Below, one piece after another: positions 42,140 through 64,000 of a stretch of DNA of 64,000 bases. Each line of letters begins with the position of its first letter. Within the stretch, counting starts at the first letter, position 1. The notes below the pieces were generated by a model that saw only the letters and a list, made by a program, of their open reading frames with translations, made no database searches and had not been told where the DNA came from. The stretch comes from Klenkia soli (GTDB lineage Bacteria > Actinomycetota > Actinomycetes > Mycobacteriales > Geodermatophilaceae), in contig NZ_FNIR01000010.1 in assembly GCF_900103975.1 (NCBI RefSeq), positions 124,001 through 188,000 on the forward strand. The letters run 5' to 3'. The translations under genes were made by a program, and so were the position numbers.

Positions 42140-45100
42140 GTGTACGAGTTCGACGACGGGCTGGTGGTCAGCGCCGGTGACCTGACCGGCTTCCTGGCCT
42201 GCGAGCACCTCACCCGGCTCTCCCGCGAGGTCGCCCGGGGCGAGCGGGCCCGGCCCACCGCGGTCGACCCGATGACCGCGCTGGTCGCCGAGCACGGCAT
42301 CGCGCACGAGGCCCGGCACGTGCAGCGGCTGCGCGACCGGGGCCTGTCCGTCGTGGAGATCGCCCAGCCCGGCTCCGGCCGCGACGCCGCCGGCCTGCAC
42401 CGGGCCCAGGCCGACACGGTGGCCGCCATGCGGGCCGGGGCCGACGTGGTCTACCAGGCCACCTTCTACGGCAGCCGGGCCGCGGGGGTCACCTGGCGCG
42501 GGCACGCCGACTTCCTGGTCAAGCGCACCGACCGGAGCAGCGCGCTGGGCCCCTGGGCCTACGACGTCGCCGACACCAAGCTGGCCCGCCGCATCAAGGT
42601 GCCGGCGATCCTGCAGATGGCGCTCTACGGCCGGCTGCTCGCCGACCTGCAGGGCGTGCCGCCCGAGCTGCTCACCGTGGTCACCGGCGACCAGCAGGAG
42701 CTGGTCTTCCGCTTCGCCGACGCCGAGGCCTACGCGCGGGCGGCCGAGGAGCGGTTCCTGGCCCGGCTGGCCGACCTCCGGCTGGCCGAGCCCTACCCGA
42801 ACGCGCACTGCGGGGTCTGCCCGTGGCGCGAGACCTGCACCGCCCGGTGGGCCGCCGAGGACCACCTGTCCCGGGTGGCGTTCCTCCGGCGGGACCACGC
42901 AGGGGCCCTGGTCGCGGCCGGCATCGGCACGCTCACCGCGCTGGCCGGGCAGGGTCCCGATGACCTGCCCGACAGCATCGGCCGCACCTCGCGCGAGCGC
43001 ATCACCCGGCAGGCGGCGCTGCAGCACGCCGAGCAGCTCACCGGTGTGCCCGGCTACGACTTCCTGCCGCGGGTGCCCGGCCGCGGGTTCGAGCTGCTGC
43101 CCCCGCCCAGCCGCGGCGACGTCTTCTTCGACATCGAGGGCGACCCGTTCACCGGCGACCACGGCCTGGAGTACCTGTGGGGCGTGCTGGACCGGGCGGG
43201 GGAGTACCGCGCGTTCTGGGGGGTGACCGCCGACCAGGAGCAGGCCGGCTTCGAGGCGCTGGTCGACCACCTGACCGCCGTGCTGGCCGCCGACCCCGAT
43301 GCGCACGTCTACCACTACGCGCCCTACGAGCCGGCGCGGCTGCGGGCGCTGTCGGCCCGGTTCGGCAGCCGGCAGGCCGCCGTCGACCGCCTGCTGCGCG
43401 GCGACGCCCTGGTCGACCTCTACGCCGTGGTGCGGCAGGGCCTGCAGATCAGCAAGGAGTCGTACTCGATCAAGAAGGTGGAGGACTTCTACCGCGGGCA
43501 CACGAGGCCGGTCGGCGAGGCGGTGTCCGACGCCGGGGCCAGCATCGTGGCGTTCGAGCAGTGGCAGCAGACCGGCGAGCAGCGGCTGCTCGACGAGATC
43601 GAGGACTACAACCGCGACGACTGCGTGTCCACCCTGCAGCTGCTGGACTGGCTGGAGGAGCGCCGGGCCGAGCTGGCCGCCTCCGGGGTGCCGCTGGGCC
43701 GGCCTGTCGACGCCGACCCCGATCCGAGCCCCGCCGCCCAGGCCGCCGACGCCGCCCGGGAGGCCCTCGAGCAGCAGCTGCTGGCCGGGCTGCCCGACCA
43801 CACCGCCGACCGGTCGCCCGAGCAGCAGGCCGTGTGGCTGCTGGCCCAGCAGCTGGGCTGGCACGCCCGCGAGTCCCGCTCGGAGTGGTGGGAGTTCTTC
43901 CGGGTGCGCGACCTGACCCCGGCCGAGCTCGAGCGCGAGACGGCGGCGCTGGGCCCGCTCGAGCCGCCGGTCGTGCTGGGCGTCGCCGAGGGCCGGGTGC
44001 ACGTCGCCCACCGGTTCCCGCCGCAGGAGACCAAGCTGGCCCCGGGGCAGCGGGTCGAGCAGGTACCACCGGGGGCGGACGGCCGTGCGGTGTCCGCCGA
44101 GGTGGTCGCGGTCGACGGCGCCACCGGTGAGCTGGTGCTGTCCCGGCCGGTGGGGCGGGCGGGCGACCACGCCGAGGGGTTGCTGCCCACCGGCCCGCTC
44201 GACGCCCGCAACCAGAAGGCGGCGCTGCTCCAGCTGGGTGCCGCCGTCGCCGACGGCGGGCTGGCCGGTCCCGGGGTGCGCACCGCGGCCGCCGACCTGC
44301 TGGCCCGGCGCCCGCCGCGGCTGCGGGCCGGCACCCCGCTCCAGGTGCCCGGCGAGACCGCGGCCGACCGCACCCGCCGGCTGGTGGCCGCGCTCGACGG
44401 CGGCGTGCTGGCGGTGCAGGGTCCGCCCGGGGCGGGCAAGACCTGGGCGGGGGCGCGTGCCGTGCTCGACCTGGTGCGCGCCGGCCGGCGGGTGGCGATC
44501 ACCGCCAACAGCCACAAGGTGGTCGGCAACCTCCTCGACGGGGTGCTGCGCGCCGCCCGCGAGGCCGGCCAGCCCGTGCGCGCGGTGCAGAAGGCCCCCG
44601 CCGACCAGCGCTGCGCCTCCCCGGAGGTGCTGGGCACCGACGACAACGCCACCGTGGTCGAGCTGCTCGACGCCGGCGACGTCGACGTCGTGGCCGGCAG
44701 CCCCTGGCTGCTCACCCGGGCCGACCTGGCGGGCCGGCTCGACGTGCTGGTCGTCGACGAGGCCGGGCAGCTGTCGCTGGCCGACACCCTGGCGGTCTCC
44801 CGCTGCGCCACCGACCTCGTGCTGCTCGGCGACCCCCAGCAGCTGCGGCAGCCCGGCCGGGGCATCCACCCCGACGGCGCCGACGTGTCCGCGCTGCAGC
44901 ACGTGATCGGCGACGACGACGTCCTGCCCGCCGACCGGGGCGTGTTCCTCGACCGGTCGTGGCGGATGGCCCCGGCGCTGTGCCGGGTGGTGTCCGAGCT
45001 GTCCTACGAGGGGCAGCTGCACCCGGCGCCCACCACCGCCGGCAACGCGATCGACCTGCCCGCGCGGTGGGCCGCCCCGGCCGGCATCGGCTGGGTGCCT

Positions 45101-45646
45101 GTGGTGCACGAGGGCAACGGGTCCGCGTCGGGGGAGGAGGCCGCCGTGGTCGTCGAGCTGGTCGGCGACCTGCTCGGCCGGGCCTGGCGCGACCCGGGTG
45201 GCGACCGGGTGGTGGGGCAGGCCGACGTCCTCGTCGTCACCCCGTACAACGCGCAGGTCAACCGGATCCGCTCGGCGCTGGCGGCGGCCGGCTTCGCCGA
45301 CGTCGAGGTCGGCACCGTCGACAAGTTCCAGGGGCGGGAGGCCGCGGTGTCGGTGTTCAGCCTGGCCGCCTCGAGCGGTGCGCACGTGCCGCGGCGGCTG
45401 GACTTCCTGCTCGACCGGCACCGGCTGAACGTCGCCCTGTCGCGGGCCAAGACGGCGGCCTACCTGGTGGGCAGCCCGGCCCTCCTCACGTCGCCGGTGC
45501 ACACCCCTGAGCAACTACGCCTGGTGAACGGGCTCTGCCGGCTGGTCGAGCACGCCACAGGGCGTGTCGGACCTGGGTCGGCGGGGGTCCGCGGGGCAGA
45601 TGTGGCCACTCTCGGTCACGAAGTGGACACGACCCTGGTGCGGTGA
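42140..45646 (+). CDS. TM0106-type fusion: Fe-S RecB-like nuclease, DEDD exonuclease and SF1 helicase
   Basis: 1168 residues with three catalytic modules. (1) Residues 1-245: Cas4/RecB-like nuclease with D124, D145-x-K147 and the Q159-x3-Y163 motif, and four Cys (21, 224, 227, 233) placed as in the [4Fe-4S] cluster of AddB/Dna2/Cas4. (2) About 325-510: RNase H-like exonuclease with D-I-E-G-D-P near 331 and D-Y-N-R-D-D-C near 489. (3) About 740-1150: Upf1/Dna2-like SF1 helicase with G-P-P-G-A-G-K-T at 761-768, V-V-D-E-A-G-Q near 872, G-D-P-Q-Q-L and V-D-K-F-Q-G-R-E. By family a DNA-repair or DNA-processing enzyme; its physiological role is unproven. Confidence 0.92.
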   Translation: MYEFDDGLVVSAGDLTGFLACEHLTRLSREVARGERARPTAVDPMTALVAEHGIAHEARHVQRLRDRGLSVVEIAQPGSGRDAAGLHRAQADTVAAMRAGADVVYQATFYGSRAAGVTWRGHADFLVKRTDRSSALGPWAYDVADTKLARRIKVPAILQMALYGRLLADLQGVPPELLTVVTGDQQELVFRFADAEAYARAAEERFLARLADLRLAEPYPNAHCGVCPWRETCTARWAAEDHLSRVAFLRRDHAGALVAAGIGTLTALAGQGPDDLPDSIGRTSRERITRQAALQHAEQLTGVPGYDFLPRVPGRGFELLPPPSRGDVFFDIEGDPFTGDHGLEYLWGVLDRAGEYRAFWGVTADQEQAGFEALVDHLTAVLAADPDAHVYHYAPYEPARLRALSARFGSRQAAVDRLLRGDALVDLYAVVRQGLQISKESYSIKKVEDFYRGHTRPVGEAVSDAGASIVAFEQWQQTGEQRLLDEIEDYNRDDCVSTLQLLDWLEERRAELAASGVPLGRPVDADPDPSPAAQAADAAREALEQQLLAGLPDHTADRSPEQQAVWLLAQQLGWHARESRSEWWEFFRVRDLTPAELERETAALGPLEPPVVLGVAEGRVHVAHRFPPQETKLAPGQRVEQVPPGADGRAVSAEVVAVDGATGELVLSRPVGRAGDHAEGLLPTGPLDARNQKAALLQLGAAVADGGLAGPGVRTAAADLLARRPPRLRAGTPLQVPGETAADRTRRLVAALDGGVLAVQGPPGAGKTWAGARAVLDLVRAGRRVAITANSHKVVGNLLDGVLRAAREAGQPVRAVQKAPADQRCASPEVLGTDDNATVVELLDAGDVDVVAGSPWLLTRADLAGRLDVLVVDEAGQLSLADTLAVSRCATDLVLLGDPQQLRQPGRGIHPDGADVSALQHVIGDDDVLPADRGVFLDRSWRMAPALCRVVSELSYEGQLHPAPTTAGNAIDLPARWAAPAGIGWVPVVHEGNGSASGEEAAVVVELVGDLLGRAWRDPGGDRVVGQADVLVVTPYNAQVNRIRSALAAAGFADVEVGTVDKFQGREAAVSVFSLAASSGAHVPRRLDFLLDRHRLNVALSRAKTAAYLVGSPALLTSPVHTPEQLRLVNGLCRLVEHATGRVGPGSAGVRGADVATLGHEVDTTLVR

Positions 45647-53101: not shown

Positions 53102-53608
53102 ATGACCGACCACGGCGAGGACGAGGTCCGGGGCACGGTGAGGGCTGCCGACGGCCTGGGCGTGGTGCGCCTGGAGGTCCGGTGCGCCGTCGGGGTCGAC
53201 GAGCTGTGGTCGGCGCTGACCGACCGGCGCCGGCTCGGTGCGTGGCTCGGCGAGCTGGACGGCGACCTCCGGTCGGGCGGGGAGTTCACCGCGCGGTTCA
53301 CGGCCAGCGGCTGGGAGGGCACGGCTCGGGTGGAGGTCTGCGACCCGGGGCGACGGCTGGTCGTGCGGACGCAGTCTCCGGACGAACCGGCCGGCCGCTT
53401 CGAGGTCACGCTCACCCCGCACGGTGCCCGCACCGACCTGGTCGTCGAGGACAGCGGTCTGCCCGTGGACCAGCTCGCCGCCTACGGGGCGGGGGACCAG
53501 ATCCACGTCGAGGACCTCCTCGCCCACCTCGCCGCCCGCCCGCCCTGCGACGCCCGCGCGCGGTGGGCGGAGCTGCACCCCGGCTACCAGGTCATGGCGC
53601 CGGGCTGA
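53102..53608 (+). CDS. SRPBCC/AHSA1-family protein
   Basis: 168 residues from ATG 53102 (GGGAG upstream). AHSA1-type START-like fold: A-V-G-V-D-E-L-W-S-A-L-T-D-R-R-R-L-G-A-W-L near residue 27, D-L-R-S-G-G-E-F near 55, and a C-terminal helix D-Q-I-H-V-E-D-L-L-A-H-L. Often encoded near ArsR regulators; here no ArsR gene is adjacent. Ligand unknown. Confidence 0.86.
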   Translation: MTDHGEDEVRGTVRAADGLGVVRLEVRCAVGVDELWSALTDRRRLGAWLGELDGDLRSGGEFTARFTASGWEGTARVEVCDPGRRLVVRTQSPDEPAGRFEVTLTPHGARTDLVVEDSGLPVDQLAAYGAGDQIHVEDLLAHLAARPPCDARARWAELHPGYQVMAPG

Positions 53609-53651
53609 ACCCGGCCGCGCCCGGCGGGAGGACGCCGGTCAGGCTGGGGTG

Positions 53652-56027
53652 GTGAGCGACGAGGCGGGTGTCCGGGTCCGCGGTGCGCGGGAGCACAACC
53701 TGCAGGACGTGGACGTCGACGTCCCCCGCGACGCCCTGGTCGTGTTCACCGGGGTCTCGGGCTCGGGCAAGTCGTCGCTGGCGTTCGGCACGATCTACGC
53801 CGAGGCCCAGCGCCGGTACTTCGAGTCCGTGGCGCCGTACGCCCGCCGGCTCATCCAGCAGGTGGGCGCCCCGGCGGTCCGGGAGATCACCGGCCTGCCG
53901 CCGGCGGTCGCGCTGCAGCAGAGCCGGGGGACGCCGAGCAGCCGGTCCACCGTCGGCACCGTCACCACGCTGTCGAACTCGCTGCGGATGCTGTTCTCCC
54001 GCGCCGGCAGCTACCCGGACGGCGCCCAGCACCTGGACTCCGACGCGTTCAGCCCGAACACCGCCGCGGGCGCGTGCCCGGAGTGCTCGGGCCTGGGCAT
54101 CGTGCACACGGTCACCGAGCAGTCGCTGGTGCCCGACCCGTCGCTGAGCATCCGGGACGGCGCGGTCGCCGCCTGGCCGGGCGCGTGGCACGGCAAGAAC
54201 CTGCGCGACATCCTCACCGAGCTCGGCCACGACATCGACCGGCCGTGGCGCGAGCTGCCGCAGGCCGAGCGCGACTGGATCCTGTTCACCGACGAGCAGC
54301 CCGAGGTCACCGTGCACCCGGTGCGCGGGCCCGGCCAGATCCAGCGCGACTACACCGGCCGCTACCAGGGAGCCCGGGCCTACGTCATGCACACCCTGGC
54401 GAACACCGGCAGCCCCACGCTGCGCCGACGGGTGCTGCAGTACGTGCTCACCGACCCGTGCCCGGTGTGCGGGGGCACCCGGTTGCGGCCGGAGTCCCTC
54501 GCGGTCACCGTCGCCGGCCGCAGCATCGCCGAGCTGACCGCGCTGCCGATGACCGAGCTGCTGCCGGTGCTGCGCGCCGCGGACCTGTCGACGGTGGGGC
54601 GGGGCATCGCCGCCGACCTGGTCGCCCGGGTCGAGGTGCTCGCCGACCTCGGCCTGGGTTACCTGGGCCTGGCCCGGACGACGCCGACGCTCTCGCCGGG
54701 CGAGCTGCAGCGGTTGCGGATCGCCACCCAGCTGCGCTCGGGCCTGTTCGGCGTCGTCTACGTGCTCGACGAGCCCTCGGCCGGCCTCCACCCGGCCGAC
54801 ACCGAGCAGCTGCTGACCGTGCTGGACCAGCTCATCGCCGCCGGCAACTCGCTGTTCGTCATCGAGCACGACATGGCGGTGGCCCGGCGGGCGGACTGGG
54901 TCGTGGACGTCGGCCCGCGCGCGGGGGTGCACGGCGGGCGGGTGCTCTACAGCGGCCCGGTGGCCGGGTTGGCCGACGTCGAGGAGTCGGTGACCCGGCG
55001 CTTCCTGGCCGACCGGGGGCCCGCCGTCCGCACCCGGCGGGAGCCGTCGTCCTGGCTGACCCTGTCCGGGGTCAGCCGGCACAACCTGCGCGACGTCGAG
55101 GTGCGGGTGCCCCTCGGGGTGCTGACCGCGGTCACCGGCGTCTCGGGGTCGGGCAAGTCGACGCTGGTCAGCCAGGTGCTGGCCGAGGTCGTCGAGTCCT
55201 CCCTGGCGGGTTCCGCCGTGCCGGCGGAGGGGGTCGACGCGTTGGACCGGCTGGTGCAGGTCGACCAGAAGCCGATCGGCCGCACGCCCCGGTCGAACCT
55301 GGCGACCTACACCGGCCTGTTCGACGTCGTCCGCAAGCTCTTCGCCGACACCGACGAGGCCCGGGCCCGCGGCTGGTCGGCCGGGCGATTCTCCTTCAAC
55401 GTGGCCGAGGGCCGCTGCCCCACCTGCCAGGGCGAGGGGTTCGTGGCGGTCGAGCTGCTGTTCCTGCCCGGCAGCTACGCGCCCTGCCCGACCTGCCACG
55501 GAGCCCGGTACAACGCCGAGACGCTCGAGGTCACCGTGGCCGGCAAGACCATCGCCGACGTGCTCGAGCTGACCGTGGAGGCGGCGCAGGAGTTCCTCGC
55601 GGACGTGCCGGCTGCCGCGCGCAGCCTGCGGACCCTGCAGGAGGTCGGCCTGGGTTACCTGCGGCTGGGCCAGCCGGCGACCGAGCTCTCGGGCGGCGAG
55701 GCGCAGCGGGTGAAGCTGGCCAGCGAGCTGCAGCGCGCCCGCCGCGGGCGCACGCTCTACCTGCTGGACGAGCCGACCACCGGCCTCCATCCGGCCGACG
55801 TCGAGGTGCTGATGGCCCAGCTGCAACAACTGGTCGACGCCGGCAACACCGTCGTCCTGGTCGAGCACGAGATGGACGTCGTCGCCGAGGCCGACTGGGT
55901 GCTCGACCTCGGCCCCGGCGGCGGGGACGCCGGCGGCCGGGTCGTGGCGGCCGGGACGCCGGAACAGGTGGCGGATTCCAGCAGCGCGACCGCGCGGTTC
56001 CTGGCCCCGCGCCTGGCCGGGGTCTGA
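53652..56027 (+). CDS. UvrA2-type ABC ATPase (excinuclease UvrA paralogue)
   Basis: 791 residues, against about 950 for UvrA. Two ABC ATPase units: Walker [10 protein letters not shown] near residue 34 and G-V-S-G-S-G-K-S-T near 497, signatures L-S-P-G-E-L-Q-R-L near 355 and L-S-G-G-E-A-Q-R-V near 680. The zinc modules C-P-E-C/C-P-V-C and C-P-T-C/C-P-T-C are kept. Direct joining of residues 120-140 to the first zinc module shows the UvrB-binding domain is missing, the mark of class II UvrA and DrrC-like drug-resistance proteins. Probably protects DNA from an intercalating or adduct-forming compound. GTG 53652 or the one just before it is the start. Confidence 0.9.
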
Positions 56028-56043
56028 GCCCCCGGCCAGGCGC
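56009..56043. terminator. Strong bidirectional hairpin after the uvrA2 gene
   Basis: Perfect 14-base stem GCGCCTGGCCGGGG / CCCCGGCCAGGCGC with a seven-base loop that contains the uvrA2 stop codon; it ends six bases before the globin gene stop on the other strand. Confidence 0.88.
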
Positions 56044-56048
56044 TCGAC

Positions 56049-56537
56049 TCAGGCCTGCACGACCTTGCTGCGGTAGCCCTCGATGATGTCCATGAACTCG
56101 CGCAGCTCGGGGTCGGGCACCCCGACGAAGTCCAGCGTCGCCTCGATCTCCTTGGCCACGGCGTCGAAACCGGCGGTGTCGATGGCCAGGTGCTCGTGGG
56201 CGGTGTCCATGTCGTGGCCGATGTAGCACTTCGGGCCGCCCGCGGCCTCGATGGACCACGAGGTGACCAGCCATTTGTAGCCCGCGGCGTTGGCCGGGTT
56301 GCCGTGGTGCTCGTGCACCTTCTCGTTGGCGTTGACCTTGACGTTCTGGAACAGCCGGTCGACCAGGATGTCGACGGCGCCGGCGATGCCGTAGCAGCCG
56401 CCGAGGCGCTCGTAGAGCGTGGCGTTCGGCGACTGCTCGGCCGGCGCGGTGGCGGGGTCGGCCTCCGGGGCGAGCCGGCGGGTGTCGGGGACGTGGGCGT
56501 GCTCGGGCGTGGTGGTGGCGTCCTGGGTGGTGGTCAT
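56049..56537 (-). CDS. glbN: Truncated hemoglobin, group I
   Basis: 162 residues: a 38-residue disordered N-terminus, then a globin core from T-L-Y-E-R-L-G-G (about 40-47). [16 protein letters not shown] near 54 is helix B/C; the segment [21 protein letters not shown] near 97-117 is the conserved E-F region with the proximal haem His, most likely His114. Group I assignment from this segment. Roles in the family include NO detoxification or O2 handling. Confidence 0.85.
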
Positions 56538-56705
56538 GGCGGTGCTCCCTCTGCTGCGCCGATGCTGCGGCTGCTGATGGATCGCGCCCTGCTCCCTCGG
56601 ACCCCCTCGACGTCTCCCCGGACGCGCCCCCGTTGGGTGTGACGCAGATTACTTGTGGGCGATACCGTGGGGCAACGCCGAGTTCTCGGCGCCTACCGTC
56701 GGGGC

Positions 56706-57704
56706 ATGACGTCCCTCCGCAGGCCGCTGGACGAGCTCCGGGACACCGTCGGTCGCCTGGGTGGTCGCGGGGTTGAGGACCTGGTCGGGGACCTCTTCGG
56801 TGGTCGGTCCACGCCGTCCCGGCCGTTGGCGGTGATCCAGGCCGACCTCGCCGCGCTGATCGGCTTGGAGGCGGTCAAGGAGCAGGTGCGGGCGCTGGTC
56901 GCGTTCCTGCAGGTGCAGGCCCGCCGCAAGGAGCACGGGCTGCCCGAGGCGGCGACGTCCCAGCACCTGGTGTTCCTGGGCAACCCGGGCACGGGCAAGA
57001 CCACGGTGGCCCGGCTGCTGGCCGAGATGTACCGCGCGGTCGGCCTGCTGCAGAGGGGCCACCTGGTCGAGGTCGACCGGGCGGCGCTCGTGGGGCAGCA
57101 CGTCGGGGCGACCGCGATCAAGACCGACCGGGTGGTGCGCTCGGCGCTGGACGGCGTGCTGTTCATCGACGAGGCGTACTCGCTGGCCCCGGAGGGCGAC
57201 GGCCGCAACGACTTCGGCCCCGAGGCGATCGAGGTCCTGCTCAAGCGCATGGAGGACCACCGGCACCGCCTGGTGGTCATCGTGGCCGGCTACCCCCGGC
57301 TGATGGAGGCGTTCCTGCTCTCCAACCCGGGCCTGCGCTCGCGGTTCGGCCGCGAGATCCGGTTCCCCGACTACTCGACCGCCGAGCTCGAGGCGATCTT
57401 CGTGAGCATGGTGGCCCAGCACGAGTACGTGCTGGAGCCCGGCGCCGACGGGACGCTGCGCAGCACCCTGGCCGGCATACGCGCGGGGGAGGACACCGGC
57501 AACGCCCGCTTCGCCCGCACCCTGTTCGAGCAGGCGCTGAACCGGCAGGCGCTCCGGTTGACCCGCGACGGCGACGTCGCGTCGCTGGACCGCGCCGCCG
57601 TCACCACGCTGACCGCCGACGACGTCGCCGAGGCCGCCCGCACCCTGCTCGGCGAGCCCACCTCGCTGCCCGAGCTCTCGCGCTGGCAGCGCTGGATGGG
57701 GTAG
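56706..57704 (+). CDS. CbbX/SpoVK-like AAA+ ATPase
   Basis: 332 residues from ATG 56706. Short N-terminal helices, then the AAA+ module: Walker [11 protein letters not shown] near residue 95, Walker B V-L-F-I-D-E-A-Y near 151, sensor-1 V-I-V-A-G-Y near 183 and arginine finger region N-P-G-L-R-S-R-F near 195. The [11 protein letters not shown] start of the module is that of CbbX and ESX EccA-type ATPases. CbbX activates Rubisco, but no Rubisco genes are here, so another remodelling substrate is likely. Confidence 0.88.
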
Positions 57705-57731
57705 CCGACCCCCGATCTCGGCGTCGACCGG

Positions 57732-58346
57732 TCAGGCGGGCACGACCCCGCCGACCTCCCCGAACAGCGGGAAGGGGGTGTCGAGCCCGTCGAGGACGGC
57801 GTCGAGGCTGCCGGCACGCTCGACCGCGGCTTCCTCGACCAGCACCTGGATCCCGTCGCCCTGCACCCGCGGTCCCACGGCCTGCACGGTCGGTGCGTGC
57901 TCGCGGATGAGCCTGTCCGCCTCGGCGAGCAGGTCGCCCGGTCGGAAGGGGGTGGCGACGACGTCCACCCTGACTCGGCCCTCGTACTCGGCGACCAGGT
58001 CCAGCACGGCGTCCGGGGGTGTCCCGAACCAGTAGAGGGTGACGGTGGTGCGGTCGTCGCCGAGTACGGGTCCTCCGCTGTCGGGTGAGCCCCCGGCCAG
58101 GAGCTGGACGCGCTGGATGAAGTCCGAGACGTCTGCCGACGGGAGCGGCAGCACCAGCTGCTCGGACGCATCCAGGTCCTCCTGGAGGTCGAGCAGCGGC
58201 GGATCGTCGGGCATCGGCAGCAGGGTGACGGACCCCGGGGGCCGACCCGGGTCGGCCGAGGGTGGGGTACCGGCGCAGGCGCACAGGGTGAGCGCGACGA
58301 GCGCGAGCGCGGGCAGTGGCCGAGGCACGGCAGCAGCATCGCGCAC
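57732..58346 (-). CDS. Putative lipoprotein, 204 residues
   Basis: N-terminal signal (PRPLPALALVALTLCACAG) with a plausible lipobox L-C-A-C, cleavage before Cys at about residue 24. The mature part is acidic and may consist of two alpha/beta repeats with strands V-T-L-Y-W-F-G and V-R-V-D-V-V-A-T-P-F, similar in style to envelope lipoproteins of unknown function. Converges with the AAA+ gene and is encoded just after the glucosidase gene on the same strand. Confidence 0.75.
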   Translation of the reverse strand: MRDAAAVPRPLPALALVALTLCACAGTPPSADPGRPPGSVTLLPMPDDPPLLDLQEDLDASEQLVLPLPSADVSDFIQRVQLLAGGSPDSGGPVLGDDRTTVTLYWFGTPPDAVLDLVAEYEGRVRVDVVATPFRPGDLLAEADRLIREHAPTVQAVGPRVQGDGIQVLVEEAAVERAGSLDAVLDGLDTPFPLFGEVGGVVPA

Positions 58347-58376
58347 GGCCGGGCCTCGTCGGAAGGCGTGGGTGGC

Positions 58377-59993
58377 TCAGCCCTCCAGCAGCCAGACGGC
58401 GGTGTCGGCCGGTAGCGCGACGGTGCCGTGCGCGTTCTTGACGTGGGTGGTGGACGCCAGCAGGACGGTGCCGGGGTTCGGCACGAGGGCGGTGTCGGCG
58501 CCCATGTTGAGCACGCAGGTCACGGTCTCGTCGTCCCCGGCGCAGCGGACGGTGAGGACGTCGCCCGACGTGCTCACCGTCGCCCGGCCGGATCCCAGCG
58601 CCGGGTGGGCGGCGCGCAGGGCCAGCGCTCGGCGGTACAGCGTGAGGGTGGAGCCGCCGTCCCGGGTCTGCCGGGAGACGGCGTGCTGCGACCAGTCGTC
58701 CGGGATGGGCAGCCACGGTGCGGCGGCACCGTCGGGGGAGAAGCCGACGCCCGGTGCCTCGTTCCACGGCATGGGCACGCGGCAGCCGTCGCGGCCGGCC
58801 CGGGCACCGCCGCTGCGGTGGAAGATCGGGTCGAGCTTGGCCTCGTCCGGGACGACGGCCTGCGGCAGCGCGAGCTCGTCGCCGGCGTAGAGGTAGGGCG
58901 AGCCGGGCAGCGCCAGCATCAGCAGCGTCGCGGCGCGTGCCCGTGCGGTGCCGAGGGTGCCGCCGCCGAACCGGCTGACCTGGCGGTCCTTGTCGTGGTT
59001 GCCGAGCACCCACGAAACGGGGGCGCCGACGGTGGCGAAGGCGTCGAGCGCGGTCTGCACGCCGTCGGCGAAGGCAGCGGCGTCCCAGCCGGACTTGATC
59101 AGCCGGAAGGAGAACGACTGGTGCAGCTCGTCGGGGCGGGAGTAGAGCGCGACCTGGTCGAGGTCGGACAGGCAGACCTCGCCGACGAGCATGGTGCCGG
59201 GGTACTCGTCGCAGATCGCGCGCCAGCGGCGCCACACGTCGTGCACCTCGGGCTGGTTCCAGGTCATGGCCTGCTCGGGGCCGTGGCCGAAGAGGGTGGG
59301 GGAGTAGGCGCCGGGGTTGTCCCGCAGCTGGTCGTCCTTGATGAGCCCGTAGGCGACGTCGACGCGGAAGCCGGAGACGCCGCGGTCCAGCCAGAAGCGG
59401 AGGGTCTGGTCGAAGTCGTCGGCGACGGCGGGGTCACGCCAGTTCAGGTCGGGCTGCTCGGGGGCGAACAGGTGCAGGTACCAGCGACCGTCGGGGGTGC
59501 GCGACCAGGCGGGTCCGCCGAACAGCGACTGCCAGTTGTTCGGGGGCTCCTCGGATGCTTCGGCGAAGTGGTACCGGTTGGCCTCCGGGCTGCTGGGGTC
59601 GGCGAGGGCCTGCTGGAACCAGGGGTGCTGGTCGGAGGTGTGGTTGGGGACGACGTCGAGGATGACCTTGAGGCCGAGCTGGTTCGCGTCGGCGACGAGC
59701 GCCTCGAGGTCGGCGAGGTCGCCGTAGTCGGGGTCGACGGCGCGGTAGTCGACGATGTCGTAGCCGCCGTCGGCGCCGCCGGAGGGGTAGTGCGGGTTGA
59801 TCCAGAGAGCGTCGACGCCGAGCCAGACCAGGTAGGGCAGCCGCGACCGCAGGCCGGCGATGTCGCCGATGCCGTCGCCGTTCGAGTCGGCGAACGAGCG
59901 CAGGTAGACCTGGTAGACGACCGCGTCGCGCCACCACTCCTGTGATGGGGCGGGTGCGGCGGGGGACGGCAGCGCTGCCAACCGGGGTGCCAT
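58377..59993 (-). CDS. Glycoside hydrolase family 13 alpha-glucosidase-like enzyme
   Basis: 538 residues from ATG 59993. The (beta/alpha)8 barrel begins W-W-R-D-A-V-V-Y-Q-V-Y-L-R-S-F-A near residue 20. Catalytic residues: nucleophile Asp in G-F-R-V-D-V-A near 214, acid Glu in V-G-E-V near 270, transition-state Asp in G-N-H-D near 334. Conserved region I is D-V-V-P-N-H near 118. The pattern places it among oligo-1,6-glucosidases, trehalose-hydrolysing or sucrose-active enzymes (QPDLNW motif). A palindrome lies about 55-75 bases upstream. No transporter is adjacent. Confidence 0.92.
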   Translation of the reverse strand: MAPRLAALPSPAAPAPSQEWWRDAVVYQVYLRSFADSNGDGIGDIAGLRSRLPYLVWLGVDALWINPHYPSGGADGGYDIVDYRAVDPDYGDLADLEALVADANQLGLKVILDVVPNHTSDQHPWFQQALADPSSPEANRYHFAEASEEPPNNWQSLFGGPAWSRTPDGRWYLHLFAPEQPDLNWRDPAVADDFDQTLRFWLDRGVSGFRVDVAYGLIKDDQLRDNPGAYSPTLFGHGPEQAMTWNQPEVHDVWRRWRAICDEYPGTMLVGEVCLSDLDQVALYSRPDELHQSFSFRLIKSGWDAAAFADGVQTALDAFATVGAPVSWVLGNHDKDRQVSRFGGGTLGTARARAATLLMLALPGSPYLYAGDELALPQAVVPDEAKLDPIFHRSGGARAGRDGCRVPMPWNEAPGVGFSPDGAAAPWLPIPDDWSQHAVSRQTRDGGSTLTLYRRALALRAAHPALGSGRATVSTSGDVLTVRCAGDDETVTCVLNMGADTALVPNPGTVLLASTTHVKNAHGTVALPADTAVWLLEG

Positions 59994-60048
59994 GACTCCG
60001 TCATCGGCAGTCGTGGGCCCAGAGGTGTGCACTGGGTCTCAGACGTCC

Positions 60049-60066
60049 CTGCCATCGATGTGGCAG
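60049..60066. promoter_or_regulatory. Palindrome upstream of the GH13 gene
   Basis: CTGCCA-tcgatg-TGGCAG, six-base arms and six-base spacer, 56 bases before the GH13 start on the complement. LacI-family operators in sugar operons have this size and symmetry, but no LacI gene lies in the window, so the regulator would be encoded elsewhere. Confidence 0.4.
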
Positions 60067-60192
60067 ATCGCCTCGTCGCGCAGACAACCTCTATGGGTGG
60101 GGACCTCCCACACCAGACGGGAGCCGTCGTCGTGACGTGGCCACGTTGGAGAGGAAAGACCTCGCGTCGGCGGCCCGGGACATGATGAGGAT

Positions 60193-61947
60193 GTGACCGA
60201 CAACGGGTTGGAGGCGCGCAGCACTGAAGCAGGTGGTGCTCCATCGCGAAACAAGGAGGCGCTGGCGCACGTGCGGGACGGCGTGGGTCGGCGGCCGGGT
60301 CCTGGCCGGTCGCTCCAGGAGGTGGCTCCGGACGTAGCCCGGCATTGGGATGAGGAACGCAACGGCGGCGTGAAGCCGACTCGCATTCACGCGAACAGCA
60401 GACGTGTGGCGTCCTGGATGTGTCCGGACTGCGGCACCCGGGGACAGGACGTGATGGTCCTCAGCCGCGTGGCCGGGTTTCGAAGGTACGGCCCAGGTCA
60501 TGGTTGCAGAAGGTGTTCTCTGGACCGGCGCGATGCACCGAAGTCCGGGATGTCGCTGGCGGACAAGCGTCCTGAGCTGGTACCCGAGTTCGACCTCGGG
60601 GCCAATCACCCACTGACACCGACCGCCGTCCCCGCCACCTCCAACAAGAAGTGCTGGTGGCATTGCCCGGCGGGTTTGGACCATCCGAGTTACCCGGCAT
60701 CTCCAGCCAATCGACGGCGGTCTGGATGTCCGGCGTGTGCCGGGAAGATGGTCACGCCCGCTACCTGTCTGGCGACACGTTTCCCGCTCGTGGCGGAGTC
60801 GTGGCACCCGACGCTGAACCACCCGCTCACCCCGCACGACGTAACCTGTGGAACACCGCGCATCGTGTGGTGGCGCTGTCGCCGGGGGCACGACTGGCGA
60901 ACGTCGGTGGCTCTGCGCACAGGTCAGTCGACGCAGTGCCCGAGATGTCACCATGCGCACCGCTCGAACATCGAGACCAGGATCTTCTCGGAGCTGTTCG
61001 TTCTGCTGGAGCCCTACCTCGGTGCTGTCGCAATTCAGCACAACCTGTCTCTGGAACGGTGTTCCAGAGCCCTGGGCGAGGTTGACATCCTGATATCCCT
61101 CCACCGTTCAGCTGGGCCGGTTGTCGAGACGAGCGTGGCCCGTGAGCTGCAGCTGATCGTCGAGTTCGACGGTGCGTACTGGCACCGAGGTCGAGGGGCT
61201 CAGGACCGCAAGAAGTCGGCCGCCATACGGGCGGCCGGATACCGGTTGATTCGCGTCCGCGAGCAACCGCTCCGTGCTCTGCATCCTGACGACGTGGCCG
61301 TCGTCAACGGGGGTACAGCACACCAGGCTGCAGTGGAAGTGCTGCGACGGCTGAGGGAGCGGGCGTGGTTACCGGCAGACCTCATCCTGCCGGTCGACGA
61401 GTATCTGTCCGGTCAGACCCCAGTCGGGGATTCAGTCGCGAATGCACTGCTTGCTGACGGGAGTCGCCGAAACCTCGGGAGTCGGTCGCTTGCGATGACT
61501 CATCCCCACCTCGCAGCGGAGTGGGACGGGAAGGCGAATGGAGATCTGACGGCCTGGAACGTCACCGCGAGCACCTCCCGGAGTGCGTGGTGGATCTGCG
61601 AGCGAGGAGACAGGTTCAGCCGTCCACCCCGCGAACGGGCGGCCGGCGGTGGGTGCCAATATTGTTCAGGTCGCGCCGTCAACGCTCGCAATTGTCTGCT
61701 GACCACCCACGCGGACCTGTCGGCCGAGCTCATGCGCCCCGAAGACGTCGCCGGACTGCACGGCGAACTGAGTGGGGCTCTGCAACGGAACCCAGCCGAC
61801 ATCAGCGGGGGATACTCGAAGATCCAGTGGTGGTGCTGCTCCGCCTGCGATTTTCAGTGGCTCGCAACAGTCAAGAACCGGGCGAGGAACGGGTCGGGGT
61901 GTCCCCGCTGCTGGAGCATTCGGCGAAGGGGGGCGACGCGCCGTTGA
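60193..61947 (+). CDS. Zinc-ribbon-repeat protein with a central Vsr-like endonuclease domain
   Basis: 584 residues, GTG start. Five zinc-ribbon repeats of the PF14311 (DUF4379) type lie at about 41-110, 121-185, 194-255, 470-535 and 540-580; the clearest repeats carry two Cys pairs separated by S-x-x-x-W-W-x-C and end C-P-x-C. Between repeats 3 and 4 (about 258-365) sits a restriction-endonuclease-like fold: E-T-R-I-F, G-E-V-D-I-L-I, V-E-F-D-G-A-Y-W-H, D-R-K-K-S-A-A-I and G-Y-R-L-I-R-V-R-E, the pattern of Vsr-type nicking enzymes. Sampled lines have about 58-68 percent GC against about 77 in a neighbour, and rare codons are frequent, so recent transfer is likely. Possible defence or homing-type nuclease (inference). 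Confidence 0.85.
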   Translation: MTDNGLEARSTEAGGAPSRNKEALAHVRDGVGRRPGPGRSLQEVAPDVARHWDEERNGGVKPTRIHANSRRVASWMCPDCGTRGQDVMVLSRVAGFRRYGPGHGCRRCSLDRRDAPKSGMSLADKRPELVPEFDLGANHPLTPTAVPATSNKKCWWHCPAGLDHPSYPASPANRRRSGCPACAGKMVTPATCLATRFPLVAESWHPTLNHPLTPHDVTCGTPRIVWWRCRRGHDWRTSVALRTGQSTQCPRCHHAHRSNIETRIFSELFVLLEPYLGAVAIQHNLSLERCSRALGEVDILISLHRSAGPVVETSVARELQLIVEFDGAYWHRGRGAQDRKKSAAIRAAGYRLIRVREQPLRALHPDDVAVVNGGTAHQAAVEVLRRLRERAWLPADLILPVDEYLSGQTPVGDSVANALLADGSRRNLGSRSLAMTHPHLAAEWDGKANGDLTAWNVTASTSRSAWWICERGDRFSRPPRERAAGGGCQYCSGRAVNARNCLLTTHADLSAELMRPEDVAGLHGELSGALQRNPADISGGYSKIQWWCCSACDFQWLATVKNRARNGSGCPRCWSIRRRGATRR

Positions 61948-62159
61948 CGCCACACGTGTGTCACGATTCCGCGGGCTGAGTCGATACCGACAGGCGGTCC
62001 GTCGGTCGCTGGCGAATCATGTCGATCACGTGCACCCTCCTGGTTCAGGATGGCGCAGAACGGTGATGGGGCAAGCCGGTCTCGTCGGGTTCCCCTTCTG
62101 GTCCACGGAATGGCGCGACGGTGCTCGCTGCACCCTGGTCGAGCGGCCTCCGGGTTTCG
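61948..62159. other. Gap after the nuclease gene, lower-GC flank
   Basis: 212 bases with no gene I would defend. Composition remains lower in GC than the genome around it, suggesting it belongs to the transferred segment. An open frame crosses it but has no ribosome site and no plausible product. A TTCGTCA ... TGACGAA dyad at 62156-62183 overlaps the end of the M18 gene and could help terminate its transcript. Confidence 0.4.
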
Positions 62160-63419
62160 TCATCCTCGTAGGCAGCTGACGAAGGCCGCCTTCATGAGGG
62201 GCACGTCGACGGCGGAGCAGAGTTCACGCACCGAGTGCATGGCCAGCTGGGGCGCGCCGACATCGACCGTCGACAGCCCGAGCCGTGTGGCCGTCAGCGG
62301 GCCGATGGTCGAGCCGCAGGGCAGGTCGGCGCGGGAGACGAAGTGCTGCACCGGCACCCCGGCCTCCTGGCAGCGCTCAGTGAACCAGCCACCTGACACC
62401 GCATCGGTCGCGTAGGCCTGGTTGGCGTTCAGCTTGAGCACCGGCCCGCCCCCCAGCACCGGCTGGTGCGACGGCTCGTGCCGCTCCGACCGGGTCGGGT
62501 GCACCGCGTGCGCCATGTCCGCGCTCACCAGCTTCGACGCCGCAATCGTCCGCGCGAACGCCTGCGGCTCCGAGCCGGCCAGGCGAGAAATGACGTCCTC
62601 CAGGAACGACCCGCGCGCCCCCGACGCCGAGCCCGAACCGACCTCCTCGTGGTCGTTGCACACCAGCACCTGGGTGTGCCGCGTCTCCGCGGAGACGCCC
62701 AGCAGCGCCAGCAGACCCGAGTGGCAGCAGGCCAGGTCGTCCAGCCGCGGCGCCGCGATCCACGTGCCGTCGACCCCCGCCCGCGCGGCCGGCTGCGTGT
62801 CGGCCAGCACCAGGTCGTGGCCCACGATGTCCGCCGCGTCCACCCCGGCGGTCGAGGCCAGTGCCTGCAGGAGGCCAGGCTCCGTCGACAGCTCCGACCC
62901 CCACACCGGCTGCAGGTGCCGCTGCGGGTCCAGGGTCAGCCCCTCGCGGACCGATCGGTCGAGGTGGATCGCCAGCGACGGCAGTCGCAGCGGTGCGCCG
63001 GGCAGCTTCGCGAGCACCGTCGTCCCACCGCGGAGCGCGAGGCGACCCGCGACGGTCAGCTCGCGGTCCAGCCAGGTGTGCCACAACCCGCCGCCGTAGG
63101 GCTCGACGCCGACGAGGCGGTAGCCGGCCTGCCGGACGTCGTACCGCGGGCGCACGCGGAAGGTGGGGGAGTCGGTGTGCGCGCCGATGATCCGCAGCCC
63201 GGCCTCGGCCACCGGGTCCGAACCCACCCGCACCGCCACCACGCTGGCCCCGCGCACCGTGAACACCGCGTCGCCGGGGGACAGGTCCCACACCGCGGTC
63301 TCGGCCAGCCGACGGAACCCGCCTGCCTCCAGCCGGCGGGCGATCTCCGCCGCCGCGTGCGAGGGGGAGGGGGAGGCGTCCACGAACGCGCGGAGGTCGT
63401 CACCGAGGGAGAGGTCCAC
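62160..63419 (-). CDS. apeB: M18-family aminopeptidase
   Basis: 419 residues from GTG 63419. Zinc ligands of M18: His in G-A-H-T-D-S-P near residue 83, Asp in P-R-L-D-D-L near 221, Glu pair in N-D-H-E-E-V-G near 252, Asp in S-A-D-M-A-H-A near 300 and the C-terminal His in L-A-M-H-S-V-R-E near 398. A complete catalytic set for a dodecameric aspartyl-type aminopeptidase. The last codons (S-C-L-R-G) differ in composition from the rest and abut the lower-GC segment, so the C-terminus may have been altered by an insertion. Confidence 0.9.
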   Translation of the reverse strand: MDLSLGDDLRAFVDASPSPSHAAAEIARRLEAGGFRRLAETAVWDLSPGDAVFTVRGASVVAVRVGSDPVAEAGLRIIGAHTDSPTFRVRPRYDVRQAGYRLVGVEPYGGGLWHTWLDRELTVAGRLALRGGTTVLAKLPGAPLRLPSLAIHLDRSVREGLTLDPQRHLQPVWGSELSTEPGLLQALASTAGVDAADIVGHDLVLADTQPAARAGVDGTWIAAPRLDDLACCHSGLLALLGVSAETRHTQVLVCNDHEEVGSGSASGARGSFLEDVISRLAGSEPQAFARTIAASKLVSADMAHAVHPTRSERHEPSHQPVLGGGPVLKLNANQAYATDAVSGGWFTERCQEAGVPVQHFVSRADLPCGSTIGPLTATRLGLSTVDVGAPQLAMHSVRELCSAVDVPLMKAAFVSCLRG

Positions 63420-63510
63420 ACCAGCAGTCTGGCCCACCCCGTACCGTTCCCCGGCCACCCCCGCCCGCACGCTGAGCCGCCCCCACCCGCCCGACCGACG
63501 GAGCTCCCGC

Positions 63511-64000
63511 ATGACCGCAACCACCCTCGGCGTCGAGGAGGAGTTCCACCTCGTCGACCCCGCCACCGGGGCCCTGGTGGCGAGCCAGCAGGTGGCCGCC
63601 GCCGCGGTGATGGGCCAGGCCGGGCCGCACGTGCAGCCCGAGATCAGCCAGACCCAGCTCGAGACCGCCACCGGCGTCTGCACCACCCTCGCCGAGGTCC
63701 GCGCCGAGCTCCTGGCCACCCGGCGCGAGGCCGTCGCCGCCGCCCAGGCCGCCGGGCTGACCGTGCTGGCCGCCTCCACGCACCCCTCGGCCGCGCCGGA
63801 GGACCTCGTCCTCACCGACGCCCCGCGCTACCGCGTGATGGTGCAGCGCTGGGCGGGCCTGGCCACCGGCCAGGACATCTGCGGCACCCACGTGCACGTC
63901 GGCGTCGACGACCTGAACACCGCCGTCCACGTCATGGACCGCGCCCGGCCCTGGCTGCCGCTGCTGCTCGCGATGACCGGCAGCTCCCCGTTCCACGACG
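63511..64000 (+). CDS. YbdK-type carboxylate-amine ligase (GCS2 family), 3' partial
   Basis: The first 163 residues are visible; the gene runs off the window. ATG with GGAG upstream. L-G-V-E-E-E-F-H-L-V-D at residues 6-16 and I-S-Q-T-Q-L-E-T near 45 are the usual ATP/Mg2+ elements of glutamate-cysteine ligase 2, and C-G-T-H-V-H-V-G-V near 129 is highly conserved. Such proteins ligate Glu or another acid to an amine; only some make gamma-glutamylcysteine. Divergent from the aminopeptidase gene across 91 bases. Confidence 0.88.
   Translation, partial: MTATTLGVEEEFHLVDPATGALVASQQVAAAAVMGQAGPHVQPEISQTQLETATGVCTTLAEVRAELLATRREAVAAAQAAGLTVLAASTHPSAAPEDLVLTDAPRYRVMVQRWAGLATGQDICGTHVHVGVDDLNTAVHVMDRARPWLPLLLAMTGSSPFHD

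Follow-up and report, generated by a model that had tools for sequence, protein, structure and literature searches.

In the 64,000-nucleotide stretch of Klenkia soli contig NZ_FNIR01000010.1 analysed here (hereafter the window), an intact open reading frame (ORF) of 584 codons with a GTG start occupies positions 60193-61947 of the forward strand. A first-pass annotation made from the letters of the DNA had described its product as a Vsr-like nuclease core wrapped by five zinc-ribbon repeats. The Pfam search of the 584-aa (amino acid) protein agreed with the wrapped arrangement, returning five DUF4379 stretches (PF14311, E 6.3e-56, 186.9 bits against a cut-off of 24.5 bits), treble-clef repeats of which three lie N-terminal of the nuclease core and two C-terminal of it. 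Besides, a DUF559 (PF04480)-like stretch at aa 315-360 scored 19.8 bits, just under its cut-off of 20.6. The gene, present in single copy in its own genome, represents a little-studied kind that is already known and is probably a free-standing member of a homing-endonuclease outgroup; the genome comparisons given below make a strong case for its acquisition as a solitary gene at a variable slot.

The nuclease core (aa 258-405, positions 60964-61407, forward strand) lies between repeats 3 and 4 and carries the motif VEFDGAYWH, which starts at aa 323. In an alignment of 33 cores, D298, E324, D326, G327 and H331 were invariant and S258, D338 and R354 nearly so, and the window protein carries all eight. 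As the aligned rows had been selected or trimmed on the E-x-D-G...H motif, the invariance of E324, D326, G327 and H331 is partly by construction, and only the conservation of D298, S258, D338 and R354 is independent of the selection. D298, E324, D326, H331 and D338 are the candidate catalytic residues. A profile of 20 cores matched four PDB entries, the best of which was 3r3p_A, a 'Mobile intron protein' that we take to be I-Bth0305I (E 5.9e-5). The structural model of the core reached a predicted local distance difference test (pLDDT) score of 80.5 and runs from a helix through three strands to a second helix and a last strand. The assignment as an EDxHD/Vsr-like nuclease of the PD-(D/E)XK kind is supported in the broad sense by the profile match to 3r3p and the conserved residues. 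With the Vsr mismatch endonuclease the core shares this broad kinship, but unlike that enzyme it has no match to the Vsr family in Pfam at E up to 1, so the 'Vsr-like' of the first-pass annotation should read 'EDxHD/Vsr-like', and a true Vsr enzyme of mismatch or very-short-patch repair was rejected as a candidate. A tree of 78 cores gave no resolved placement for the window protein, whose top identity was 40% over 130 columns (locus L042).

The same core is encoded at 36 viral loci, and Pfam was run on three of their long ORFs chosen by eye. At L116 and L145 the core lies inside an Intein_splicing stretch (below its cut-off) accompanied by Hint matches, and at L117, a DNA polymerase III alpha gene with several intein stretches, it directly follows a Hint match. 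These intein-borne phage endonucleases resemble the window protein in sharing its core with the E-x-D-G-x-x-W-H motif, and differ from it in lying inside splicing domains with no DUF4379 repeats found. A further ORF, L118, resembles the three by eye. When the core alone was searched against 50,697 phage records, 34 matched weakly, at E up to 0.01 (E 0.001-0.004 among the matches listed), 30 of them being Klebsiella phages; a Hef-like annotation stood on 7 of the 30 phage matches listed, for example in Klebsiella phage MEW1.

The bounds of the repeats were taken from an iterated profile seeded from the protein's own repeats and extended over its relatives. Repeat 1 (aa 41-109, positions 60313-60519, forward strand as for all five) has cysteines at 77, 80, 105 and 108; repeat 2 (aa 122-183, 60556-60741) has cysteines at 158, 179 and 182 plus a histidine assigned by reading; repeat 3 (aa 193-253, 60769-60951) has C229, H233, C249 and C252, the histidine again by reading; repeat 4 (aa 433-492, 61489-61668) has three cysteines only, with an aspartate, by reading, where its kin have histidine; and repeat 5 (aa 512-574, 61726-61914) was delimited by the profile. 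Four metal ligands are thus apparently kept in four of the five repeats, counting the listed cysteines and the histidines found by reading. Among the relatives the arrays comprise 2 to 10 repeats, and at L100:3310-5892 ten DUF4379 repeats are followed by an end that looks GIY-YIG-like by eye and to which Pfam gave no name. The core lies between repeats in at least ten relatives as well (L039, L054, L106, L109, L113, L161 and the divergent L060, L061, L062 and L095), so the layout that the first-pass annotation had called unusual is not unique to the window protein. In the divergent four the core has the variant form D-x-D-P-x-x-W-H and the N-terminus appears helix-turn-helix-like by eye.

The gene stands apart from its surroundings in composition, as had been noticed at first sight. 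Among the heuristic gene calls of the window, some of which are surely spurious, its GC (guanine plus cytosine) content of 0.658 was the lowest of 52 (mean 0.750, standard deviation 0.021, for the 51 others), and its GC content at third codon positions, 0.73 against 0.92 for the other calls, was the fourth lowest; the AAA gene that had served for comparison measured 0.734 and not 0.77. To the left lies an alpha-amylase family gene (PF00128, 58377-60032, reverse strand) and to the right an M18 aminopeptidase gene (PF02127, 62160-63440, reverse strand), both named by Pfam. The gap between the nuclease gene and the M18 gene is exactly 212 bases, as first reported, and held no terminator-like site. 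Rfam gave no match attaining the gathering score in 59800-62400, by which an intron-borne gene was rejected, and the promoter and terminator scan of the locus returned 0 and 0. No tRNA was found within the 64-kb window, and transposon-type ends were rejected, the locus offering only short or poor repeats.

To see what occupies this position elsewhere in the genus, where the M18 gene is present in 8 of 9 genomes (own included), we compared the M18 neighbourhoods of seven sister genomes (G001-G007) by tblastn and blastn. The nuclease gene was at the amylase-M18 slot in none of the seven (tblastn). Two slots were near-empty, with the aligned amylase and M18 parts 81 bases apart in G001 and 65-80 in G007, and the other five were filled or rearranged differently: a TetR regulator and a short-chain dehydrogenase in G003, a RelA/SpoT-domain protein and a 37-kD nucleoid-associated-type (NA37-type) protein in G002, an IS481-type transposase and a UvrA-like gene in G006, UvrA-like and AAA genes in G004, and in G005 a 688-aa ORF with no Pfam match, the amylase not being found within 12 kb of sequence. 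The amylase-M18 junction (60033-62159) is therefore a variable slot in the genus, near-empty in two of seven sisters and carrying unrelated cargo in the rest. As a GCS2 gene lies near the opposite side of the M18 gene in six of the seven sisters, the variable side is that of the amylase and nuclease. On the left, blastn homology with the sisters stops between 59994 and 60013, leaving a border zone of 59994-60192; on the right, where the zone 61948-62193 takes in the 212-base gap and the end of the M18 gene, it resumes at 62170 (62193 for G003). The suspicion that the end of the M18 gene had been altered was not borne out, since only the last two to three codons differ (ending in CLRG in the window) and the sisters differ there too (CLQHG, CLAV and CLQER).

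The relatives of the gene are patchily distributed. Matches at E <=1e-3 occurred in 10 of 96 other genomes among relatives, the top-scoring one being 38% identical, and PF14311 was found in 19 of 298 genomes of the order (18 above the cut-off). Matches at E <=1e-20 occurred in 5 of 394 genomes of the class, own included, and a pattern search of genome contigs confirmed 5 of 19 places. Among plasmids 75 of 72,556 records matched the protein, mostly annotated 'zinc-ribbon domain-containing protein' among the matches listed, and among phages the whole protein matched 4 of 50,697 records. The outlying GC content, the absence from the slot in all seven sisters and this patchy presence, with PF14311 in 19 of the 298 genomes, together argue for horizontal transfer, as the first-pass annotation had proposed.

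The plasmid copies allowed us to follow the gene across changing contexts, although they belong to a different branch from the window gene, whose own core has its nearest match at 40% identity. The gene of L105, on a Streptomyces plasmid, shares 78-81% DNA identity with five other Streptomyces plasmids over the gene only, and 68% with a Kitasatospora plasmid copy. In plasmids that lack the nuclease, the left flank of L105 continues into an aldo/keto reductase gene. Directly at the gene the six Streptomyces copies show four left contexts, one common to L107, L204 and L205 (87-92%) and the others those of L105, L206 and L207, of which L105 and L207 have a 1.4-kb stretch in common at differing distances; on the right no two of the six flanks are alike, save for 32 bases that occur in two of them. 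Five of the six copies are intact, L204 being annotated as two pieces, and the five intact ones are under purifying selection, with a ratio of nonsynonymous to synonymous substitution rates (dN/dS) of 0.18-0.30. In the window's own family, the genes of L096 and L057, from different genera, are 77% identical with no common flank. From the plasmid flanks it follows that the gene often marks where homology ends, and phage nuclease genes are reported to mark ends of homology in the part of PMC10448857 consulted.

In five Streptomyces orthologues, repeat columns 42 and 44 vary between the repeats and are mostly or fully conserved between orthologues, a pattern that carries no significance test and stands against an overall trend in the opposite direction (Spearman -0.59). 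One could imagine the DUF4379 arrays as a natural modular zinc-finger nuclease system in which each repeat of about 60 aa would read a DNA segment of constant length, arrays with more repeats would recognise longer sites and the nuclease ends would be swapped (EDxHD, GIY-YIG-like), an idea we hold to be improbable. Should the repeats read DNA in this modular way, bacteria would have an equivalent of the designed zinc-finger nucleases.

The neighbourhoods of the relatives were compared across 27 loci. The search for a constant partner failed: leaving aside the nuclease itself and helicases with helicase-associated (HA) repeats, every group present in at least three loci came from the syntenic set of L060, L061, L062 and L095. 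An HA-repeat helicase adjoins the nuclease in L099 and L109 (L099:714-5759, L109:4629-9872) and lies 6 kb away in L107; these three had been clustered with the nucleases on account of L110, in which HA repeats are fused at the end of a DUF4379 nuclease (L110:7287-9515). When proteins near the relatives were picked for comparison with defence models, five of ten matched something, among them a Wadjet JetD-like protein in L098, a helicase matching PDC-M23B and HamB in L100, and a PDC-M55C/HEC-05-like protein in L055. At L098:6090-10244 the JetD-like gene stands beside two adjacent DUF4379 ORFs.

Several known systems resemble the window gene in part. Its catalytic core is like that of the I-Bth0305I-type EDxHD homing endonucleases by profile, and their DNA-reading part presumably differs from its own. 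T5orf172 homing endonucleases, which have GIY-YIG kinship, differ from the window protein in their nuclease. They are like it in setting repeated zinc-finger readers on a homing nuclease, the fingers being CapR, DUF723 and 'DUF4397' in the portion of PMC10448857 at hand, where the text writes DUF4397 and a figure legend 4379. Enzymes of the I-Bth0305I type are described among those of group I introns in the passages of PMC3943268 available, whereas Rfam detected no intron at the window gene. A further counterpart comes from Merk, Jones and Eddy (NAR 2025, PMC12350094), who in the sections consulted combine CapR/DUF4379-like repeats and an EDxHD/Vsr-like nuclease in a large unrecognised homing-endonuclease outgroup. 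The phage group II intron enzymes described there join an EDxHD/Vsr-like nuclease to repeats of about 60 aa that are distant kin of CapR, DUF4379 and DUF723, as here, but the three to five repeats are followed by a C-terminal nuclease and the genes lie in introns, unlike the window gene, which stands free in the chromosome and has three repeats before its core and two after it. Among the papers listed in our literature search none dealt with bacterial free-standing members, though this does not prove that no such paper exists. A family mostly annotated 'zinc-ribbon domain-containing protein' can now be placed among homing-type nucleases, and the surroundings of DUF4379 nucleases are seen to vary on both chromosomes and plasmids of actinobacteria.

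On balance we lean towards the window gene being a free-standing site-specific DNA endonuclease of the homing-endonuclease type, whose zinc array would read a long DNA site. To judge from its residues and kinship the central core would cut DNA, the DUF4379 repeats on both sides may clamp a long target, and the gene arrived alone in the variable amylase-M18 slot, as genome comparison shows. Most probably it spreads by cutting sites that lack the gene and being copied in through double-strand-break repair, or by riding such recombination. Several observations speak against this interpretation. There is no recognised intron in the region scanned with Rfam and no intein, the ORF standing alone. 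The window protein by itself reached 3r3p with an E of only 0.17 in a phmmer-type single-sequence search, and Foldseek of the core model, which listed McrC, BamHI, TnsA and Mus81 among its top matches, several of these top matches being PD-(D/E)XK nucleases, gave none at E <=1e-3 and did not include 3r3p among the best 50. The core profile matched 160 of 296 class genomes, mostly in shorter, weaker DUF559-like proteins (many of about 300 aa, for which no homing role is known), and the own genome had nine more matching places (ten in total), so distant repeat-free kin of the core are common in chromosomes. Between the blastn bounds 78 (G007) to 104 (G001) sister bases are left unmatched and were replaced with no clean split. 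Nor is this classic allelic homing, as the sister slots hold unrelated cargo and the plasmid relatives occupy non-homologous places. Lastly, the clade of L060, L061, L062 and L095 keeps its synteny in four genomes, which would be expected of a resident gene. Its gene identity of 55-71%, below that of most of its flanks, looks vertical, and its synteny across two genera is what could be said for a resident housekeeping or DNA-repair gene that is merely AT-richer, a reading already largely refuted and very improbable for the window gene given the seven sister slots that lack it, its GC content and a top-scoring match only 38% identical among 96 other genomes.

The main rival is a defence function: a lone nuclease, brought into the slot as cargo, would act against phages or plasmids, its array recognising invading DNA that is modified or has a site not found in the host, and its core cutting that DNA. 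We regard this as unlikely and retain it because of the G002 cargo, whose RelA/SpoT-domain protein matches PADLOC PDC-S33 (E 4e-11), the defence-like genes near L098, L100 and L055 and the HA helicase of L099, L109 and L107; the patchy distribution and plasmid carriage also fit it, and homing-type parts are reused in phage-satellite conflict according to the consulted part of PMC10448857. The protein itself matched 0 PADLOC families at E up to 1, no partner is constant across the 27 loci apart from the HA helicase of three, and no methyltransferase family was found among the seven neighbours scanned at 53238-63999, one of which had no match at all. Defence-like matches occurred in both 139 near and 125 far genes of the relatives (best 25 of 91 and 25 of 55 families), a comparison with no genome-wide background control, so we do not count them as enrichment. 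Of the suggestion of a self-contained mobile or defence gene, the mobile half fits best. Alternatively, the repeats might bind structured RNA and the core cut RNA. The solved relatives of DUF4379 are mitoribosomal proteins, which makes RNA binding a live alternative and counts against a DNA reader: trypanosomatid mitoribosomal proteins took the first eight places when the full model was compared by Foldseek (five at E <=1e-3), and phmmer with the window protein found 6sga_Fd at E 3e-6. That model, however, reached a predicted template-modelling (pTM) score of only 0.33, and the best solved relative of the core as well as its intein-borne kin are of homing type, so an RNA-directed nuclease seems improbable.

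Elsewhere in the window, a UvrA-like ABC protein is encoded at 53238-56027, and its placement relative to the M18 and amylase genes varies among the sister genomes. The 1168-aa product of the gene at 42140-45643 combines an AAA_12 helicase domain with an RNase_H_2 domain.

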